DNA of 64,000 nucleotides, taken from contig SJPJ01000001.1 in NCBI GenBank assembly GCA_007859835.1, forward strand, positions 8,160,329 through 8,224,328, in the 5' to 3' direction. This DNA is from Novipirellula herctigrandis. GTDB taxonomy: Bacteria > Planctomycetota > Planctomycetia > Pirellulales > Pirellulaceae. The translations under genes were made by a program, and so were the position numbers. Below, in pieces: positions 18,296 to 29,655 of this stretch (position 1 is the stretch's first letter; every line of letters starts with the position of its first letter). The notes beneath the pieces are model-generated. The model made no database searches. It worked only from the letters and a program-made list of their open reading frames with translations, and was not told where the DNA came from.

Positions 18296-18937
18296 ATGAA
18301 TTCTTACCCTATTGCCATCGAAATTGCTGGCCCCAGTGCCATGTGGACCCGACCTGACACCGGTGACGCACCTGTCAGTTACCTGGCGCCCACTTATTCC
18401 GCGGCCAAGGGAATTTTTGAATCCGTATGTTGGCTCAAGTCGGCTGTGGTTCGTCCGACGCGAGTTGAGATATGTTCAATGCCGGTTTGGCATACTTTCA
18501 CGACGAATTACGGCGGACCGCTGCGCAAATCAAAGTCGGTCAAAGAGGGCAACAGCTTTCAACTCTTAGCGACTGTATTGGTCAATGTTTGCTACCGGAT
18601 CTATGGCGAAGCAGTTGGCGTTGAACATGACCGTGGGCAAACCGAACGAAGCGGTGTGTACAGAAAAGCCAAGATCAATGGTGCCCATGCTTATCAAGAA
18701 ATATTCCAACGTCGGTTGCTCAAGGGCCAGTGGTATTCGACGCCTTGTTTAGGTTGGAAGGAATTTGTACCGAACTATGTCGGGCCGCTCCGCGACGAAT
18801 CTAAGGCATGCCCGAGCGTCAACGCTTGCTTACCAAGCATGCTGCAATCTGTTTTTTCGGAAACCAGTCACGGCACGTATTCACCAAGCTTCCGTCAAAG
18901 TGTTGAAATCCGCAAAGGAGTGCTTCACTATGCTTAA
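18296..18937 (+). CDS. cas5: Cas5 (subtype I-C, Cas5d/Cas5c)
   Basis: 213 residues, the usual size. In I-C systems, which lack Cas6, this protein is both the pre-crRNA endonuclease and the 5'-handle subunit of Cascade. Diagnostic segments: 'EIAGPSAMWTRPDTG', 'VSYLAPTYSAAKGIFESV', 'PVWHTFTTNYGGPLRKS', 'SFQLLATVLVNVCYRIY', 'AHAYQEIFQRRLLKGQ' (a His in the expected catalytic region) and 'STPCLGWKEFVPNYVGPLRD'. The stop overlaps the start of cas8c by 8 bp. It is the first gene of the operon. No other processing nuclease gene is present, in line with this role. Confidence 0.93.
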   Translation: MNSYPIAIEIAGPSAMWTRPDTGDAPVSYLAPTYSAAKGIFESVCWLKSAVVRPTRVEICSMPVWHTFTTNYGGPLRKSKSVKEGNSFQLLATVLVNVCYRIYGEAVGVEHDRGQTERSGVYRKAKINGAHAYQEIFQRRLLKGQWYSTPCLGWKEFVPNYVGPLRDESKACPSVNACLPSMLQSVFSETSHGTYSPSFRQSVEIRKGVLHYA

Positions 18938-21068
18938 CGAACTCTACGACCTGTCGAAGAGTCTCGATCGACTGGGGGTCGAAGTTGTTTCGTGGCATCG
19001 GTTTTTGAAAGAGTGCCCACGCGGGAAATCATTTTTTGTGGACTTGGGTAGAGACTCCAATGTGACTGCGATTCGCCCGATTACTGATCCAGATCGCTTA
19101 AGTAATCTACGCAAGTATGAAAAGGCAGCCGGCTATTCATTCCCATCATTCAACATTCTGCCACTATGGCAATTCGACGAGGAACAACACAGGGAAACGG
19201 CAGCTAAATTGCGAAAGTCAATGGGAAGCAAAAAGCGACCTCCGATCGAAGAAGCATCGCAACAGATTGCCGAACTTGTCGCAGTCGCACGTTCTTGCTG
19301 GGTCGATCCAAACAAGAAAAGCGGTGGACGTGACGCGATGGACAAGGTAAACGGGTGCGTCGGAAGCATTGTTGATGATGTTGCCGCGATCGTCGAAGTA
19401 AGCGACACCAAGGCATCGGCTCCGTTGCATGCAATCATTGAACGCGCCAAGCTACTCGACGGCGAACAGCTTCACAATCGCCTCTCGGCATGGCTCGTCG
19501 AGCAATTCGCAAAGCCTTCAGACAACTCGGTCACTTGGTTCGATTTACTGTTCTTCGCCAGTGGGAAAAAACCGAAGTCCTTTTCGGTCGTATTGGAACT
19601 GAGTGAACAACACGAATTTGAGTATCCCGTCAATCATCCGGCGGTTTTTGACCACCTGAATAACTGCCTTCAAGGCAGTGACGCTTCCGCGTCGGACAAC
19701 AGCAAGGCATTGCGGCCGGACGCGTTCGCAGCCACGGATGGAGGACGTGAGAAGAGTTTTCCTACGGTGAAAATGTCACGGTTTGGGAACATCAATATAA
19801 GGGCGATGTCGCGTGAATCTTTGTGTCAAGTTCGCTACGGAGTCGCTGAATCCAAATCGTTCCCGGTTGCCCAGACAATCCGGCAACAGTGCAAGAATGC
19901 ATTGGAATGGATCTCGCGAGACCAACGGAAAGATGTGACATGGTGTGACATCACATCGATTAGCGGTTCGCCGTCGATACTTTTTGCGTATCCTTCGCAT
20001 TTGCCCGAGCAGATACCTGCGCTAGCGTTCTTGCTCAATGGCGATGAAGATCCAACATCACTCCAAACGGAAGGTCAGTTTGAAGCTTGTGCTGAAACGA
20101 TTGCGAAGGCGTTGTCTGGTCGCAAGGAATCGGAGGGTTCGAAGGAAATAGTCATCTTCGTGCTCGCGAAACCGGATGGATTTCGCACCAAGGTCCTTTA
20201 CAGTCACCGGTGCAGCGAGTCGCACCTCATCAAATCAGCGGAAGATTGGCAACACGGCTGTTTGAACATTCCCGAGATCCAAGTTCGGCAATTTGGGCGT
20301 GAGAAAGGTGACAAACCACAGTGGCGCACGCCACTGATACCGTTTACCACGGAGATCATTGGTTGCCTCAACACGGTTTGGTTGCGACAGGGGACCCACG
20401 CCAGTTCTTGCAAAACCGTCGGTGTCGCCGACTCGCTTTCTATTCTACTTGACCATGGCGAAACGTTGAATCGAACAGCATCGAACCTGCTCGAAGTGAC
20501 GCTCAAGAACACAATCGGCTTGATGCTCGCAGTCGGACAAGCCAGCAGGCTTGGCCGCGTTCATGCGGTGGCTCGCAACCAGCAAAAACACCAACTTCTG
20601 ATCCCACGAATCCTGGGCTTGTTGCTCTGGAAGCTCGGCATTCCCAAAGGAGATTATATGAAGACCCCCGCGTTCTGGGTTGGTCGCATGCTCGGCCTGG
20701 CCGATCAACTTCATTTGCAATACTGCTATCATGTGCGCAAAGGAGAAATTCCACCACAGCTGGTCGGTAATTCGCTGATGTCCACGGCGCTCAGCACGCC
20801 TGAACACGCTTTGTCCGTTCTCGCTGAACGCATGCGACCGTACCAAGCATGGGCGCAAACCGTACACACGGGTGAGAACGTCGGTTTGGCGAAATACCTT
20901 TTGTCGCATCTCAGTGCCGTTTCGATCCAACTCGCCGAACTTGACATTCCGACCCGAACCAACGATTCCGATCGAGCAACGATGTTGCTCGGCTACCTAT
21001 CACGTCCTGCAAAAGATACACGTACCACCAACGGAGAGAACGAGAATGACGACAGCGACCAAGAATGA
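18930..21068 (+). CDS. cas8c: Cas8c (Csd1), large subunit of I-C Cascade
   Basis: 712 residues from ATG 18930, chosen because GGAG lies nine bases upstream and 'MLNELYDLSKSLDRLG' matches the family start; the longer frame from 18765 lies inside cas5. The large subunit recognises the PAM and recruits Cas3. Visible features: 'KCFVDLG'-type N-terminal strand ('KSFFVDLGRDSN'), central 'KPKSFSVVLELSEQHEF', 'LNGDEDPTSLQTEGQFEACA', 'TPLIPFTTEIIGCLNTVWLR', and a C-terminal helical part ('YYMKTPAFWVG'-like 'DYMKTPAFWVGRMLGLADQL') that in I-C also yields the internal Cas11 subunit. It overlaps cas5 by 8 bp and cas7 by 23 bp, so translation is probably coupled. Confidence 0.9.
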   Translation: MLNELYDLSKSLDRLGVEVVSWHRFLKECPRGKSFFVDLGRDSNVTAIRPITDPDRLSNLRKYEKAAGYSFPSFNILPLWQFDEEQHRETAAKLRKSMGSKKRPPIEEASQQIAELVAVARSCWVDPNKKSGGRDAMDKVNGCVGSIVDDVAAIVEVSDTKASAPLHAIIERAKLLDGEQLHNRLSAWLVEQFAKPSDNSVTWFDLLFFASGKKPKSFSVVLELSEQHEFEYPVNHPAVFDHLNNCLQGSDASASDNSKALRPDAFAATDGGREKSFPTVKMSRFGNINIRAMSRESLCQVRYGVAESKSFPVAQTIRQQCKNALEWISRDQRKDVTWCDITSISGSPSILFAYPSHLPEQIPALAFLLNGDEDPTSLQTEGQFEACAETIAKALSGRKESEGSKEIVIFVLAKPDGFRTKVLYSHRCSESHLIKSAEDWQHGCLNIPEIQVRQFGREKGDKPQWRTPLIPFTTEIIGCLNTVWLRQGTHASSCKTVGVADSLSILLDHGETLNRTASNLLEVTLKNTIGLMLAVGQASRLGRVHAVARNQQKHQLLIPRILGLLLWKLGIPKGDYMKTPAFWVGRMLGLADQLHLQYCYHVRKGEIPPQLVGNSLMSTALSTPEHALSVLAERMRPYQAWAQTVHTGENVGLAKYLLSHLSAVSIQLAELDIPTRTNDSDRATMLLGYLSRPAKDTRTTNGENENDDSDQE

Positions 21069-21894
21069 TGTGCAGCGAGTGACTGGATTGCTAGTGATCG
21101 AAGTCATCAACTCTAATCCCAACGGTGACCCTGACCGGGAAAGCGATCCTCGTCAGCGGCCAGATTGGCGTGGCGAGATCTCACCCGTCTCGTTTAAGCG
21201 AAAGCTGCGTGACTTAGTCGAAGACAAGGACGGAATCGTCTGGGATCAAATTTCAAGCGACTTGAAAATCGCAGCGGAAGAGTTTGGGATTCTTGAATCG
21301 CGAGGTCGTGACCGTAAAACGATTGAAGGACAAATCAAGGACGGCACTTTCAAAGACGCCTATTGGGACGGGCGAGTGTTTGGCAATACGTTTCTTGAAG
21401 AAGGCACATCTGGATCGATTAAGACGGGCGTCGTGCAAGTTGGGCTCGGCATCAGTGTGGCGCCGATTGAAATCAGCCGGCACACGAACACCAATAAATC
21501 GGGAGTTCAGGAAGGAAAAGATCGAGGAATGGCTCCGATGGGCTATCGATTCGTACCGCATGGCGTCTATTGCATGCCATTCTTCGTAAACCCATCCATG
21601 GCACCAAAATCGGGTTGTACACAGCGTGATATCGATCTGATGAAGGCACTGATTCCTCTTGCGTATTCCCATACGCGTTCTCACGCTCGCCCCATGGTGG
21701 AAATCAGGCATGCTTGGGTGATGACACACAAGTCACAGCTTGGATCTTGCTCTGACTTTGCACTCATCGATGCGCTGGCGCCGACCAAGAAGAACGAACC
21801 GGATAAAGCGTCAACAGCCTGGACTGATTACGAGGTACCAACAACGCTTCCGAAGGATTTTTCGGAAAAGGTGATGCTCGAAGATTTGGTTTGA
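21046..21894 (+). CDS. cas7: Cas7 (Csd2), backbone subunit of I-C Cascade
   Basis: 282 residues from ATG 21046 with GGAGAG upstream; the longer frame lies within cas8c. It forms the crRNA-binding filament. Family marks: 'GLLVIEVINSNPNGDPDRES' at the N-terminus (the conserved NSNPNGDP RNA-binding segment), 'DAYWDGRVFGNTFLEE', 'TGVVQVGLGISVAPIEISRH', 'MAPMGYRFVPHGVYCMPFFV' and 'SHTRSHARPMVEIRHAWVMT'. It ends at TGA 21892-21894, followed by cas3 rather than cas4, which is unusual for this subtype. Confidence 0.95.
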   Translation: MTTATKNDVQRVTGLLVIEVINSNPNGDPDRESDPRQRPDWRGEISPVSFKRKLRDLVEDKDGIVWDQISSDLKIAAEEFGILESRGRDRKTIEGQIKDGTFKDAYWDGRVFGNTFLEEGTSGSIKTGVVQVGLGISVAPIEISRHTNTNKSGVQEGKDRGMAPMGYRFVPHGVYCMPFFVNPSMAPKSGCTQRDIDLMKALIPLAYSHTRSHARPMVEIRHAWVMTHKSQLGSCSDFALIDALAPTKKNEPDKASTAWTDYEVPTTLPKDFSEKVMLEDLV

Positions 21895-21920
21895 CCTCAT
21901 CTCCAATTAATTCAGTAACC

Positions 21921-24128
21921 ATGCTTTACGCCCATAGCCCCAAAGCCAAAGACGGCATTACCGCGCAGACCTATCGCGACCACATCCAAGCGGTCTATGC
22001 AGGTGCAGTTCAGAGAGCAATGGGGGCAAGTGGGCAAACGGTGTTTGCCTCCCTTTTCAACGACGCCGTTCGCTTAGCCGCTGAGTTTCATGATCTGGGT
22101 AAGCTTGATCCATTGAATCAAGCCGTATTGTCTTCGGAAGGGAAAGGCAGGCTACCAATCAATCATGTTGATGCAGGGACTGCGGAGATGTTGCGACGAA
22201 CATCATCAAGAGCCGCAATGGTTGCGGCACTACTAATCTATTCTCATCATCGTGGGCTGCCCGATTTCTCGGAGTTGCAACAGAACCAATTGCGCGACAT
22301 TACCGTTGACGAGAGTTTGGGTCTAACCAAATTGCGAACGGATCGATTCCTAGATGAGTACGTGAACGCTCATGAGGGTGAAACCGACTTTCCGATTGCT
22401 TCATCAAAGGTGTCTTATCAATCTCCAAAAAACCTGCAATTGCTATCCCGGTTCGCATTGTCTTGTTTGGTCGACGCCGATCACTTTGATACGTCTGCGA
22501 ATTATGGACAGGCTCACCCATCGCCCCAGGTTCACCTGCGACCATCCGAGCGACTGAAGCAGTTGGATCGCTACGTCGCAAGCCTGAAGAGCAACAAAGA
22601 GGACAAACGCAATCAACTGCGAGGGAAAGTTTACGCGTCATGCCGCAGCTCAAACGTTCCGCGAGGAATCGTCGCCTGCGACAGTCCGGTTGGTTCTGGC
22701 AAGACCACAGCGGTCATGGCGCACCTACTGCAAGTCGGGCGTAAACATAAAATGAGACGAATTTTCGTCGTACTACCCTATACGAATATCATCACACAAA
22801 GTGTTGACGTTTACCGCAAGTGCCTCGTTCTAGCTGGTGAGAATCCTGAACATGTCGTTGCCGCACATCATCACCGTGCCGAATTCTCTGATCCCCAATC
22901 ACGCCATTTGACGTATCTTTGGGAAGCACCGATAGTGGTCACCACGGCAGTTCAGTTTTTCGAGACACTTGCTGCCGCACGAACAGGGACGCTACGCAAA
23001 CTGCATCAATTGGCTGCATCTGCTGTTTTTATAGACGAATCACATGCGGCACTTCCGGCATCGCTTTGGCCGATAGCGTGGAAATGGTTACAAAGTTTTC
23101 GGGACGAATGGAATTGTCATTTTGTGATGGGTTCCGGTTCCCTTTCACAATTCTGGACCCTACCCGAGTTTGCTAGCCCGCCGGTGCAAATCCCCGAATT
23201 GATTGACGAAGCGCACAGTCAAGCCAGTAGTGAATTCGAGGCGGAGCGAATTCATTACCAATCCCAGTCAGAACCGTTGGACTTGGATCAACTCGTTGAT
23301 TGGGTCGACCGGCATTCTGGGCCAAGGTTACTGATCGTCAACACAGTTCAATCCGCCGGGTACATTGCGATGCAGATCAAGGCAAAAACCGGTAGGCGGT
23401 CGGTCGAACACCTATCGACTGCGCTTGCCCCTGTTCATCGGGAGCGGACGCTATCGCGAATCCGATCACGACTTGATGACAAATCCGACACCGATTGGAC
23501 ATTGGTCGCCACATCGTGTGTCGAGGCCGGTGTGGATATCTCATTCCGGACAGGTTTCCGTGAACGCTCGTCGCTCAACAGCCTTTTGCAAACATCCGGA
23601 CGAGTAAATCGATCGGGTGAATACGGGGCTGCAGATGTTTGGGATTTTCAACTCGTCTTCGATCATCGCCTTCGGAAACATCCCGCCTTTGAAGATTCCG
23701 CGGAAGTTCTTGGTCAATTGTTTAGCGAAGACAGAGTGGCCCTTCAATTCTGCACTGAGGCAATGCGGCGAGAGATTCGACGTTGTGGAATGAAAAGCGA
23801 TGCTAAGTTGCTGTTGGAGGCCGAAGAAAAGCAACAGTTTGTAGAGGTTCAATCGCGATTCAAAGTGATCGACTCTAACACCGACGTTGCCGTCGTGCTT
23901 CCTTCGCTCAAGAATCGCTTGCGTGCCAATAAACATGTTTCGTTTCAGGATTTGCAAAGTGGCAGCGTTCAAATCTATTCGAATCGGCGAGCCGACTTTG
24001 CCTTGTCACCAATCGTTCAGCGGCCAGGCGTTTTTGAATGGACGTTGAAGTACGACAAGTTCCTGGGCTACATGGCTGGAATCATTGACAATGTCGAACT
24101 GCTCGATGGCGGTGTTGCATTTGCATAG
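21921..24128 (+). CDS. cas3: Cas3 helicase-nuclease (I-C)
   Basis: 735 residues from ATG 21921 ('MLYAHSPKAKDG'), the point where Cas3 HD domains normally begin; a TTG at 21891 overlapping the cas7 stop would add ten residues. It unwinds and degrades target DNA recruited by Cascade. N-terminal HD nuclease (~1-200): 'EFHDLGKLDPLNQ', 'INHVDAG', 'LLIYSHHRGLPD'. SF2 helicase: Walker A 'ACDSPVGSGKTTAVMAHLL', Walker B-type 'VFIDESHAALPA' (DESH rather than DEAH), 'GSGSLSQF', 'VATSCVEAGVDISF' and 'LLQTSGRVNRSGEYG'. All catalytic motifs look intact. Its place between cas7 and cas4 differs from the common cas3-first order. Confidence 0.92.
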   Translation: MLYAHSPKAKDGITAQTYRDHIQAVYAGAVQRAMGASGQTVFASLFNDAVRLAAEFHDLGKLDPLNQAVLSSEGKGRLPINHVDAGTAEMLRRTSSRAAMVAALLIYSHHRGLPDFSELQQNQLRDITVDESLGLTKLRTDRFLDEYVNAHEGETDFPIASSKVSYQSPKNLQLLSRFALSCLVDADHFDTSANYGQAHPSPQVHLRPSERLKQLDRYVASLKSNKEDKRNQLRGKVYASCRSSNVPRGIVACDSPVGSGKTTAVMAHLLQVGRKHKMRRIFVVLPYTNIITQSVDVYRKCLVLAGENPEHVVAAHHHRAEFSDPQSRHLTYLWEAPIVVTTAVQFFETLAAARTGTLRKLHQLAASAVFIDESHAALPASLWPIAWKWLQSFRDEWNCHFVMGSGSLSQFWTLPEFASPPVQIPELIDEAHSQASSEFEAERIHYQSQSEPLDLDQLVDWVDRHSGPRLLIVNTVQSAGYIAMQIKAKTGRRSVEHLSTALAPVHRERTLSRIRSRLDDKSDTDWTLVATSCVEAGVDISFRTGFRERSSLNSLLQTSGRVNRSGEYGAADVWDFQLVFDHRLRKHPAFEDSAEVLGQLFSEDRVALQFCTEAMRREIRRCGMKSDAKLLLEAEEKQQFVEVQSRFKVIDSNTDVAVVLPSLKNRLRANKHVSFQDLQSGSVQIYSNRRADFALSPIVQRPGVFEWTLKYDKFLGYMAGIIDNVELLDGGVAFA

Positions 24129-24140
24129 CGAGGGGCAAAG

Positions 24141-24800
24141 ATGAGTGACGACGACTTGCTTTCAATTCGCTACCTCAACGACTTTTTGTTTTGCGAGCGA
24201 AGGGCCGCTTTGCATTTGAATGAACAGATTTGGAAGGACAACCAGTTCACCAGCGAAGGGCTTTTGGCTCATAAGCGTGTCGACATACCGAAGAGCTTAC
24301 GTCGGTCCGATCGTCGGCAAGTGACTGGAATGTGGTTAGTTTCCTATCGACTGGGTTTAATCGGCATCGGTGACTTGGTGGAACTGCGAGACAACGATGA
24401 AGGCCCGCCGAGTCCTTATCCGGTCGACTTTAAACGAGGAAAAAAGCGACGCTGGGACAATAACGAGGCGCAACTGTGCGCTCAAGCCATGTGCTTGGAA
24501 GAGATGCTTGGCGTGGACGTGCCGGTCGGTGCGATCTTTCACATTAAGAGTCAGCATCGCGAAGAAGTTGTCTTCGACGAAACACTGCGATCTTTGACGG
24601 AAAACACAGCCAAGCGGCTGCGCGAACTTGTTGAGTCGAGTGAGACGCCGACGGCAAAGTTCAAGCAAAAGTGCAAAGGCTGTTCGTTGTTGGAGTGGTG
24701 CATGCCGAAATCGCTACGCCCTCGTGCCACTGCCGCGAAATACCTGCAATCGATTGTCGATGACGGAATTGCCGAACCTTCCGATGGGGACTCACTATGA
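24141..24800 (+). CDS. cas4: Cas4 RecB-like nuclease
   Basis: 219 residues, 12 bp after cas3. Cas4 trims prespacers and selects PAM-bearing ones together with Cas1-Cas2. Seen: 'RYLNDFLFCERRAALHLNEQ' with the first cluster Cys, 'GIGDLVEL' and 'YPVDFKRGKKRRWDNNEAQL' (RecB nuclease D and K-x-K region with the downstream Gln), and the C-terminal 'KCKGCSLLEWCMP', giving four Cys for an Fe-S cluster. The stop overlaps the cas1 ATG (ATGA at 24797-24800). Confidence 0.93.
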   Translation: MSDDDLLSIRYLNDFLFCERRAALHLNEQIWKDNQFTSEGLLAHKRVDIPKSLRRSDRRQVTGMWLVSYRLGLIGIGDLVELRDNDEGPPSPYPVDFKRGKKRRWDNNEAQLCAQAMCLEEMLGVDVPVGAIFHIKSQHREEVVFDETLRSLTENTAKRLRELVESSETPTAKFKQKCKGCSLLEWCMPKSLRPRATAAKYLQSIVDDGIAEPSDGDSL

Positions 24801-25828
24801 AGCATCACCTCAATACGTTGTTTATCTTTACGCAGGGTGCCTACTTACGGAAGGAATCCGAAACCGTAGTGGTGCGGATCGATAAGGAATCCAAGACACG
24901 GCTGCCACTGCTGAACATTGGCTCCATTGCGTGTTTTGGGCGTGTTGGCATCAGTCCTCAATTGATGGGATTCTGCGGTCAGAAAGGGATCGCGATCACA
25001 TTCATGACTGAACATGGACGTTTTTTGGCGGCGGTCCACGGATTCACGCCGGGAAACGTACTGCTGCGGCGGGAGCAGTATCGACGCGCTGATGATCAGG
25101 ATTCCGCCAAACTGATTGCACGAGCCTGCATCATCGGCAAGCTGGCAAACTATCGTACGGTTCTGCGACGTGGAGTTCGCGATCAATCAGCGTCCGATGC
25201 AACCAAACGTCTGACCCGTACGGCGAACCGCATCGACATGGCAATCCGAACGCTCAACGATTCGCTATCGCTGGATCAACTGCGTGGCATGGAAGGCGAG
25301 TTCAGTGCCGAGTATTTCGGCGTCTTCAACGACTTGATTACATCGGGTAAGGGCGAGTTTGTATTTTCCGGTCGGACACGCAGGCCTCCCAAAGACAAAG
25401 TTAACGCGATGCTATCGTTTCTCTATAGCATGTTAACGAACGATTTGCGGTCAGCCTGTGAAGCCGCTGGTTTGGACGCAGCGGTAGGCTTTTTGCATCG
25501 TGACCGGCCTGGACGGCCAAGCCTCGCACTCGATTTGATGGAAGAGTTCCGTGCTGTGTTGGTCGATCGATTAGTTCTTTCGCTAATCAATCGTGGGCAG
25601 GTCAAAGCCAACGGATTTGTCGAGGAGCCGGGAAACGGGATCCGGATGAACGAGGCAACACGCAAGACGATTGTCGCGGCTTACCAAAAACGCAAGCAGG
25701 AGACTGTCACGCATCCATTCCTGAACGAAAAGATGACGCTCGGCTTGGTGCCGCACATCCAAGGCCGACTCTTGGCAAGACACTTGCGAGGCGACTCGGA
25801 CGCCTACCCTCCGTTTGCATGGAAATAA
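24797..25828 (+). CDS. cas1: Cas1 integrase (I-C)
   Basis: 343 residues, the usual I-C length. Integrates new spacers at the leader-repeat junction with Cas2. Seen: N-terminal beta domain 'NTLFIFTQGAYLRKESETVV', 'GKLANYRTVLRRG', and the alpha domain with catalytic Glu in 'LRGMEGEFSAEYFGVFNDLI', His in 'AAVGFLHRDRPGRPSLALDL' and Asp/Glu in 'LMEEFRAVLVDRLVLSLINR'. All catalytic residues appear present. It overlaps cas4 by four bases. cas2 begins ten bases after the stop. Confidence 0.95.
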   Translation: MKHHLNTLFIFTQGAYLRKESETVVVRIDKESKTRLPLLNIGSIACFGRVGISPQLMGFCGQKGIAITFMTEHGRFLAAVHGFTPGNVLLRREQYRRADDQDSAKLIARACIIGKLANYRTVLRRGVRDQSASDATKRLTRTANRIDMAIRTLNDSLSLDQLRGMEGEFSAEYFGVFNDLITSGKGEFVFSGRTRRPPKDKVNAMLSFLYSMLTNDLRSACEAAGLDAAVGFLHRDRPGRPSLALDLMEEFRAVLVDRLVLSLINRGQVKANGFVEEPGNGIRMNEATRKTIVAAYQKRKQETVTHPFLNEKMTLGLVPHIQGRLLARHLRGDSDAYPPFAWK

Positions 25829-25838
25829 GGAGATGTCG

Positions 25839-26129
25839 ATGATGGTACTAGTCACCTACGATGTTGCAACCTCCGATCGAGTTGGTCAACGTCGATTACA
25901 AAAAGTTGCAAAAACATGTCAAAACTTTGGTCAACGCGTGTAAAATTCAGTTTTTGAGTGCGACGTTTCGATGGAGCAGTTCGTACGACTGAGAGGCGAA
26001 TTGACGGACGTGTTGGATCCGTCGTCTGATAGCCTGAGATTCTACTTTTTGGGCAACAATTGGAAGCATCGAGTGGAACACATTGGGGCTAAGCCGGTTT
26101 CACCGATGGACGATCCACTAATTCTCTAG
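25839..26129 (+). pseudogene. cas2: Cas2 with an in-frame TAA (codon 35)
   Basis: From ATG 25839 (GGAG six bases upstream; ATGs at 25833 and 25842 are in the same frame) the protein reads 'MMVLVTYDVATSDRVGQRRL', 'QKVAKTCQNFGQRV', TAA at 25941-25943, then in the same frame 'NSVFECDVSMEQFVRLRGEL', 'TDVLDPSSDSLRFYFLGNNW' and 'KHRVEHIGAKPVSPMDDPLI' to TAG 26127-26129. Length and sequence equal a complete 96-residue I-C Cas2 with the conserved Gln of 'RVQxSVFE' replaced by stop, a single C-to-T change from CAA. Everything else looks selected. Cas2 bridges two Cas1 dimers, so spacer acquisition should fail unless the stop is read through, is a sequencing error, or another cas2 exists. Confidence 0.9.
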
Positions 26130-26325: not shown

Positions 26326-29300
26326 ATCGTTCGCTCGCGAGAGCGAACGCGGATTGAAACAAATTCCCACCCTTGTTCGATTAACTCTTTTTATCGTTCG
26401 CTCGCGAGAGCGAACGCGGATTGAAACGAAATCCCCTGCACATCCGCCACCGTAGCCGGTGATCGTTCGCTCGCGAGAGCGAACGCGGATTGAAACAAGC
26501 GAATTGGCCGCACAGATTGACGCGATCGTATCGTTCGCTCGCGAGAGCGAACGCGGATTGAAACGGAGTGCCACCAATACAACAAATTGTCGGATCGCAT
26601 CGTTCGCTCGCGAGAGCGAACGCGGATTGAAACTGCTTCAACAGCACTTCGACTGTCTTCACGTCTTATCGTTCGCTCGCGAGAGCGAACGCGGATTGAA
26701 ACTAATCAGCCAGACTTTCTCGCTGAAGTTTTCTGCATCGTTCGCTCGCGAGAGCGAACGCGGATTGAAACAGACATCGTCAGAGCTGAAATCGAAACGC
26801 AGGTATCGTTCGCTCGCGAGAGCGAACGCGGATTGAAACTCGGTCAACTTTGCATCTTTAACTTTCACCATTATCGTTCGCTCGCGAGAGCGAACGCGGA
26901 TTGAAACAATCGCTCCGTAATTGTGGTCGCTTCCGATCGTATCGTTCGCTCGCGAGAGCGAACGCGGATTGAAACAAAACTTCGTGACTGTACGTGTGAC
27001 TGCCGAACTATCGTTCGCTCGCGAGAGCGAACGCGGATTGAAACGAGTAGCATGATTTCGTGTGACACTCGCCAATAAATCGTTCGCTCGCGAGAGCGAA
27101 CGCGGATTGAAACTGTGCGACTCAGTCTCACCGATGCGTTCTCAATATCGTTCGCTCGCGAGAGCGAACGCGGATTGAAACACGAATCAGCGTCTTAATC
27201 GTCTCGTCTGCGTATATCGTTCGCTCGCGAGAGCGAACGCGGATTGAAACGGTGCAATCACTTGGTGAGAATGTTTTCTTGATATCGTTCGCTCGCGAGA
27301 GCGAACGCGGATTGAAACAGTCCAATCAGATCGTTTTCCTTGTCATGAACCAAATCGTTCGCTCGCGAGAGCGAACGCGGATTGAAACACAATCCCACTA
27401 AGATCCACCCCCGACGTCTCGCACATCGTTCGCTCGCGAGAGCGAACGCGGATTGAAACATTCGATTAGCTTTTTGCCGGTTCGTGTCTCTTCATCGTTC
27501 GCTCGCGAGAGCGAACGCGGATTGAAACATTGCTGACATAGATGATCACATCGGGGGTGAAATCGTTCGCTCGCGAGAGCGAACGCGGATTGAAACAGTC
27601 CAATCAGATCGTTTTCCTTGTCATGAACCATCGTTCGCTCGCGAGAGCGAACGCGGATTGAAACACGATAACAATTTCGCGGTGCGTTGGCTGTTGGATA
27701 TCGTTCGCTCGCGAGAGCGAACGCGGATTGAAACGTCCTGGAATGTGTCGGAGGTTGCTACGGGCGGATCGTTCGCTCGCGAGAGCGAACGCGGATTGAA
27801 ACGACGATTTGCGGATTTTTCAGTAGCCAAAGGTATCGTTCGCTCGCGAGAGCGAACGCGGATTGAAACGCCTAATGACTCGAAAGCGTTGTTGTTGCGT
27901 CGATCGTTCGCTCGCGAGAGCGAACGCGGATTGAAACTGAACCAGTGCGTGTATAGTAGGTGTGGTCGTTATCGTTCGCTCGCGAGAGCGAACGCGGATT
28001 GAAACGTAGATGTTGGACAATTCACCAACTTCATTTCCGATCGTTCGCTCGCGAGAGCGAACGCGGATTGAAACGACAACTTACTCAGTTATGCAGCGGG
28101 TTTGACCATCGTTCGCTCGCGAGAGCGAACGCGGATTGAAACATTTGTAAGTCGTCTATCATCTACTAATTCTCCATCGTTCGCTCGCGAGAGCGAACGC
28201 GGATTGAAACGGAGTGGAACGGCGATAAATGCAAGATGGTCTACGATCGTTCGCTCGCGAGAGCGAACGCGGATTGAAACTTCATTCATTACGCGCCGCC
28301 GACGTGGTCGACGATCGTTCGCTCGCGAGAGCGAACGCGGATTGAAACTCGCCAATGTCGAGAACGCGACTGGCGACGACTTATCGTTCGCTCGCGAGAG
28401 CGAACGCGGATTGAAACCGTGATGCAGCCGGCAAAGCATTCGGCGTTTCTATCGTTCGCTCGCGAGAGCGAACGCGGATTGAAACGTGACCCCATTGGAT
28501 GCAGCCTAATGACCCGAAAATCGTTCGCTCGCGAGAGCGAACGCGGATTGAAACGCCTAATTGCTCGTTTCCCGATTGTCCGGCAATCATCGTTCGCTCG
28601 CGAGAGCGAACGCGGATTGAAACACGTCGATCGAATCTATGGCTTGGCAGACTTTACATCGTTCGCTCGCGAGAGCGAACGCGGATTGAAACCACGGCCG
28701 GGTTCGCGGCGACAATCGAGGAAATCTATCGTTCGCTCGCGAGAGCGAACGCGGATTGAAACGACAGGGTAGCTTCGGTTTACAACCAGATGATTTCATC
28801 GTTCGCTCGCGAGAGCGAACGCGGATTGAAACTTGTTCATGTCGCTGTAACTACTCATTTTTCACATCGTTCGCTCGCGAGAGCGAACGCGGATTGAAAC
28901 CGAACGATGATACTTGCGGAGCAATCGAGCCATAATCGTTCGCTCGCGAGAGCGAACGCGGATTGAAACTGCTCACGTGCATTCGCTTGGTTATCGATTT
29001 TGGATCGTTCGCTCGCGAGAGCGAACGCGGATTGAAACATCGGTGTCACCGGAAAGACTTCGCTGACCCGAAATCGTTCGCTCGCGAGAGCGAACGCGGA
29101 TTGAAACAGCGAGTGCAACACCTAGGGGGCCGGTTGCGAATATCGTTCGCTCGCGAGAGCGAACGCGGATTGAAACCGCAAAACGATGGCAAGATGAAAA
29201 CATAAGCAAGATCGTTCGCTCGCGAGAGCGAACGCGGATTGAAACTCTTAGTGGACAGGGTTTTACTATGGGACAAAAGGATCGTTCGCTCGCGAGAGCG

Positions 29301-29655
29301 AACGCGGATTGAAACAGCCCAATGAGATCGTTTTCCTTGTCGTGAACCATCGTTCGCTCGCGAGAGCGAACGCGGATTGAAACATCAAAAGCTCTAGACA
29401 TCGACCGCGAATCAAAATCGTTCGCTCGCGAGAGCGAACGCGGATTGAAACAGTCTGCAACGCTTCGTCGATCGCGTCGGCAAGATCGTTCGCTCGCGAG
29501 AGCGAACGCGGATTGAAACGCGTAATCATCGATGGCAGCACCGAAGACGAATCATCGTTCGCTCGCGAGAGCGAACGCGGATTGAAACTGAGCTGGGGAC
29601 TGGTCGCAATTGCAGTTGCGATCGTTCGCTCGCGAGAGCGAACGCGGATTGAAAC
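26326..29655 (+). CRISPR. CRISPR array, 49 repeats of 35 bp, 48 spacers
   Basis: I located 49 repeats by eye. The first starts at 26326 and the last ends at 29655; all look identical, including the last. The repeat begins ATCGTTCGCTC and ends GCGGATTGAAAC; the GGATTGAAAC tail is typical of I-C repeats. It contains a perfect 9-bp inverted repeat (CGTTCGCTC / GAGCGAACG) closing on GCGA, a GNRA tetraloop. Spacers are 32-36 bp, mostly 33-34. At 35 bp the repeat is longer than the usual ~32 bp of I-C. Spacers 27319-27353 and 27597-27629 match over 33 bases and 29316-29348 is a close variant. Orientation agrees with the cas operon. Frames reading through repeats ('RSRERTRIE', 'NPRSLSRAND') are not genes. 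Confidence 0.98.

Follow-up and report, generated by a model that had tools for sequence, protein, structure and literature searches.

Primed adaptation in type I CRISPR systems is marked by unequal use of protospacers and by re-capture near a partly matched site. The closest described case is the type I-C array of Legionella pneumophila Toronto-2005, in which newer spacers match the element LME-1 perfectly, whereas older ones, directed at overlapping sites, are mismatched in the seed or the PAM. There, 2 of 23 independently acquired spacers fell on the same protospacer after priming, and the authors read the pattern as escape followed by primed capture (PMC5071653).

The locus described here lies in a window of 64,000 nucleotides from Novipirellula herctigrandis (contig SJPJ01000001.1), the whole stretch of DNA that was analysed, from whose first letter all positions are counted. 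Its features are as follows.

18296..18937, forward strand, cas5c (PADLOC Cas5c, 8.9e-21; Pfam PF09704)
18765..21068 (listed ORF), forward strand, cas8c (PADLOC Cas8c, 3.1e-139)
20872..21894 (listed ORF), forward strand, cas7 (PADLOC Cas7b, then Cas7c; PF05107, 8.9e-50)
21891..24128, forward strand, cas3 (PADLOC Cas3c, 2.7e-107)
24141..24800, forward strand, cas4 (PADLOC Cas4c, 3.1e-67)
24797..25828, forward strand, cas1 (PADLOC Cas1c, 1.2e-148)
25839..26129, forward strand, cas2 with an in-frame TAA at 25941-25943, both pieces matching Cas2c and PF09827
26130..26325, forward strand, presumed leader, placed by its position between cas2 and the first repeat
26326..29655, forward strand, CRISPR array of 49 identical 35-nt repeats and 48 spacers of 32-36 nt

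The genes cas5c, cas8c, cas7, cas3, cas4 and cas1, upstream of the array and on the same strand, give the locus a type I-C make-up. Systems of this type generally lack cas6, the repeat being processed by Cas5c, and recognize a TTC PAM on the 5′ side of the spacer. PADLOC and Pfam together identified the defining set of cas3, cas5c, cas8c and cas7 as well as cas4, cas1 and cas2; the interruption of cas2 bears on present function, not on the type I-C subtype. The best PADLOC match of cas7, Cas7b, is labelled both I-B and I-C, and the family match starts at residue 69 of the listed ORF. For cas8c the Pfam Cas_Csd1 match falls below the cut-off, and the true start is probably further in than that of the listed ORF, since the family match begins only at residue 56. 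The repeat scan tolerated up to 6 substitutions, and still all 49 repeats were identical over 35 nt. Nineteen spacers are 33 nt long, 19 are 34, 6 are 35, 3 are 32 and 1 is 36 nt (n = 48). With up to 3 mismatches allowed, the repeat was found in 1 of 40 genomes, its own, so that there is no sister array among these. Several family genomes contain stretches 64-75% identical to the array (L049-L055, L066, L067), which are probably arrays whose repeats are related to these; the array-like stretches fetched from them contain no match, within 8 mismatches, to any of the 48 spacers. A second array in the same genome, at C1:7520668, was ruled out, there being no direct repeats at that place.

Cas2 is needed for spacer acquisition. 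Aligned to the 74-position Pfam Cas2 model, the two pieces of cas2 span positions 1-29 and 31-73; in the 95-position PADLOC Cas2c model they span 1-34 and 36-95. Since the genome contains no Cas2 match besides this gene, reported with one TAA inside, the acquisition of new spacers is probably off at present, unless the TAA is a sequencing error. The interference genes keep open frames while the acquisition module is probably inactive, and the interrupted cas2 suggests a system still able to defend but no longer to learn.

Three spacers of the array are related to one another.

27319..27353, forward strand, spacer 15, 35 nt, allele A of the target
27597..27629, forward strand, spacer 19, 33 nt, allele A, equal to the first 33 nt of spacer 15
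29316..29348, forward strand, spacer 44, 33 nt, allele B, with three differences from allele A that are silent in reverse frame 1

Recomputation of the array returned exactly the coordinates and lengths (35, 33 and 33 nt) that the earlier note had given, and likewise the identity of spacers 15 and 19 over 33 bases and the departure of spacer 44 at three. These mismatches lie at spacer positions 3, 9 and 27 (3/33), and all three spacers begin at the same left edge. The ungapped pair scores among them are 33, 25.5 and 25.5, far above the best pair score of 14.5 in 30 shuffles of all 48 spacers, which bears out the proposal that one site was recorded repeatedly in two allelic forms. The next-best observed pair, spacers 23 and 32, scored 13.5, a value matched by 1 of the 30 shuffles. 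Spacers 23, 32 and 33 (27870-27902, 28486-28519 and 28555-28588) have GCCTAATnnCYCG-like stretches in common, located at the same edge in spacers 23 and 33; GCCTAATGACYCGAAA, common to spacers 23 and 32, occurred among 149 genomes in the array only.

In reverse frame 1 both alleles are open and read VHDKENDLIG(L), the final L being given by the two letters CT. The differences CAT/CAC, CTG/CTC and GGA/GGG are as the earlier note had them and are silent in this frame. The start methionine that it had read was not upheld: the ‘M’ corresponds to TTG, is present in the 35-nt spacer alone and is Leu unless it serves as a start codon. Chance alone would put three differences in one codon phase in 9% of cases. 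When three random substitutions were made in each of 40,000 simulated trials and an all-silent result was accepted in any open frame, such triples made up 1.3%, 2.1% and 3.3% at transition weights of 1, 2 and 4. A target that is non-coding, or coding in another frame, would have to owe its silent pattern to chance of this order, and we regard this as very improbable, given that reverse frame 1 is open in both alleles and that forward frame 0, the only other frame with third-position changes, is spoiled by a stop and an I/M replacement. The target is probably a coding sequence on the opposite strand. The claim that it encodes a protein is thus likely, if short of proof, and the three silent differences hint at the purifying selection that was claimed with it.

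Which protein this would be cannot be named from a 12-residue motif, because Peptidase_S74 tails fit the motif but so do other families. The candidate favoured at first was a phage tail fibre or spike, more exactly its intramolecular-chaperone tail (Peptidase_S74), in which the motif would form the strand after the GFIAQEV helix, LVHDKENDLIGL(N/K). The viral pattern DKEND[LF]IGL had a single match, an S74 tail (L027), and [DN][KR]END[LF]IGL had five, two of them S74 tails (L027 and L045) that read DKENDFIGL and NKENDFIGL in register after a GFIAQEV or GFIAQDV helix; by eye, the other three were not S74, nor were any of the three matches of another loose viral pattern. Against 80 tails, picked by the GFIAQEV helix pattern only (80 loci of at least 120 stretches) and not each Pfam-confirmed, the motif reached a best score of 30. 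In sets of 5000, 79 shuffles and 60 random coding 12-mers scored at least as high (1.2-1.6%), but ORFs of these loci that are not S74 scored higher still, at 32 and 31. A TTC PAM makes the next codon AAN (N or K), and N or K stands there in 5 of the 15 tails, out of 78, that fit [hydrophobic]-x-[LVMIAF]-x-Y; with a profile of the 78, however, 222 random and 174 shuffled peptides, out of 4000 each, scored at or above the target (4-6%). Further evidence against S74 came from a looser motif in species genomes, where none of 10 matches was S74 and two were PF00144, and from VHDKEND, which recurs in seven other viral contigs, again without an S74 protein: three belong to one group (one tested, DUF3310), three to a second (one tested, no Pfam family) and one is a ParB_N-like protein below the cut-off. 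The S74 domain was found in 6 of 100 family genomes but not in the genome itself, and the bare motif matched no family in Pfam or PHROGs. A natural S74 fragment had no relative in 240 family genomes, a search made without a positive control, so that its empty result shows nothing. On the strength of the species-genome, profile and VHDKEND results we downgraded S74 and now consider it rather unlikely. A gene of the PF00144 beta-lactamase family, with a C-terminal strand like W[VI]D[KR]ENDLIGL, is hardly credible as the target. Two unrelated bacterial proteins of this family do contain DKENDLIGL or DRENDLIGL (L197, L201), and a profile of 15 segments was reached by 61 of 4000 shuffles of the motif, but the same profile was reached by 501 of 4000 random coding peptides, the segments of relatives mostly have DP in place of DK, and the genes are chromosomal. 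Chromosomal genes are an uncommon source of spacers. The leads from the looser viral patterns were at odds with one another. Eleven of the 13 matches of one loose viral pattern were discarded as not coding in the searched frame: they share near-identical DNA around TAAGATAATGATTTGATAGGGTTTCATTATCTAATCCC (L036-L044, L046, L047), with ORFs of only 12 or 26 residues.

Searches of phages, plasmids, viral contigs and the species, family and phylum genomes returned no convincing protospacer for spacers 15, 19 or 44. The whole array gave 5 phage and 2 plasmid records, all with E about 3; with spacer 15 alone, phages yielded 8 records (E 0.4 to 4) and plasmids 2 (E 1), in both cases at chance level. 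The best single-spacer match (E 0.4) covers 22 of 35 bases. Spacer 44 alone had no match among phages. An 85% match of spacer 44 to a plasmid of Rhizobium sp. CB3090 was rejected, as it continues into the repeat for 11 bases and, in the predicted orientation, gives VLGKEDDLIP, and so was the longest single-spacer match, to Klebsiella phage RCIP0096 (E 4, 85% with gaps), which lies in a 72-residue hypothetical protein and reads FYDKEKDLWTV. The back-translated motif had no match in viral contigs and species genomes, and with up to 3 mismatches the spacer was found solely in the array itself among its own genome, 241 family genomes and 294 phylum genomes, the latter including its own. Elsewhere in the array, spacer 31 (28418-28450) agrees in 30 of its 33 bases with a stretch of a genome from the same family (G179:C22:1992-2025, L058). 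The three mismatches are silent in either of two frames, of which one reads RDAAGKAFGVS, and the 5′ flank of this sole close match is GCC, not TTC. Spacer 46 (29452-29484) differs at 7 of 33 bases from another same-family genome (L061), probably a chance resemblance.

Separate capture of spacers 15, 19 and 44 is the reading that we favour, because the repeats are unchanged, the lengths unequal and the neighbours unrelated. Spacer 44 is unlikely to be a mutated copy made within the array, since it carries 3 changes in 33 bases against 0 in 1715 bases of the repeats (Fisher P 6e-6), although gene conversion could maintain repeat identity and so weaken this comparison. The two other spacers pose a closer question, for they are identical over 33 nt and their difference in length, 35 against 33 nt, comes down to a two-base difference within a run of A at the spacer–repeat junction (CCAAATCG versus CCATCG), where slippage after duplication is a conceivable explanation. 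They might then be copies that arose when repeats recombined, with neighbours lost afterwards and a two-base slip, spacer 44 being the only separate capture. Such recombination copies whole units, however, and should leave equal lengths, and with unrelated flanking spacers it would take at least two events plus an indel; we therefore find copying distinctly unlikely. Spacers 14, 16, 18 and 20, the neighbours, are absent from the similar pairs, that is, they show no duplication, and 35 and 33 nt are both regular lengths in this array (6 and 19 of 48 spacers). A common left edge with a variable right edge is, moreover, what PAM-anchored capture would be expected to leave. Independent capture rather than copying, as the earlier note had argued, is thus favoured by the unequal lengths and the unduplicated neighbours.

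The polarity of the array follows from the cas side and from the repeat orientation, which is used for this purpose in type I-C arrays. On these two grounds spacer 44, fifth from the far end as counted from the cas side, is probably the oldest of the three. The proposal that the variant lies nearest the old end is supported to this extent, but the repeats are perfect at both ends of the array (26326-29655), and the presumed leader, with 47% AT, is no richer in these bases than the far flank, with 51%. The seed of type I systems includes spacer position 3. Priming by spacer 44 against allele A is plausible, since the presumed older spacer mismatches allele A at this seed position. In the history that we propose, spacer 44 would have been captured first, from allele B. 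An element with allele A, which spacer 44 matches everywhere except at the seed position 3 and at positions 9 and 27, would have arrived later, and the imperfect match may have primed new capture at the same site, yielding spacer 19 and then spacer 15. Each capture would have been anchored at its left edge by the PAM, TTC being expected, with the far edge free to fall at 33 or 35 nt, and acquisition would afterwards have stopped through the stop codon in the only cas2. To this account as a whole, comprising capture from allele B, primed recapture from allele A, a coding target and later loss of cas2, we assign a probability of roughly 0.7.

A different history, in which two related elements with their own alleles were met at different times, would involve neither escape nor priming. 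The order of capture is supported by array position alone, and three silent differences in 33 bases amount to 9% divergence, which would suit separate lineages better than quick escape. The mismatch at a seed position and the re-use of an identical edge fit priming or a capture hot spot instead, and the same pattern is found in the type I-C system of Legionella (PMC5071653). We take the encounter with two elements to be a serious possibility, if somewhat below even odds. The primed history could also be extended, tentatively and with considerable doubt, to an array that is the frozen time series of one constrained viral coding site. Allele B would have been recorded once and allele A then twice, with silent changes only, the protein being unable to change; returns with a seed mismatch, or a favoured site, would have driven re-capture, and loss of cas2 would have ended the record.

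The mechanism is an ordinary one, and the array is a well-recorded instance of a type I-C system making repeated captures. It provides a natural example, within a single genome, of such a system returning to one and the same protospacer, captured in two forms that differ silently, and the target, once known, would permit a direct test of seed-mismatch priming at the priming site itself. Like the array of Legionella Toronto-2005, it is of type I-C, holds spacers against overlapping or identical sites and includes an older spacer mismatched in the seed. In Legionella the target element LME-1 is known and was tested (PMC5071653); the present array differs also in that both newer spacers record one sequence and that its cas2 carries an interruption.
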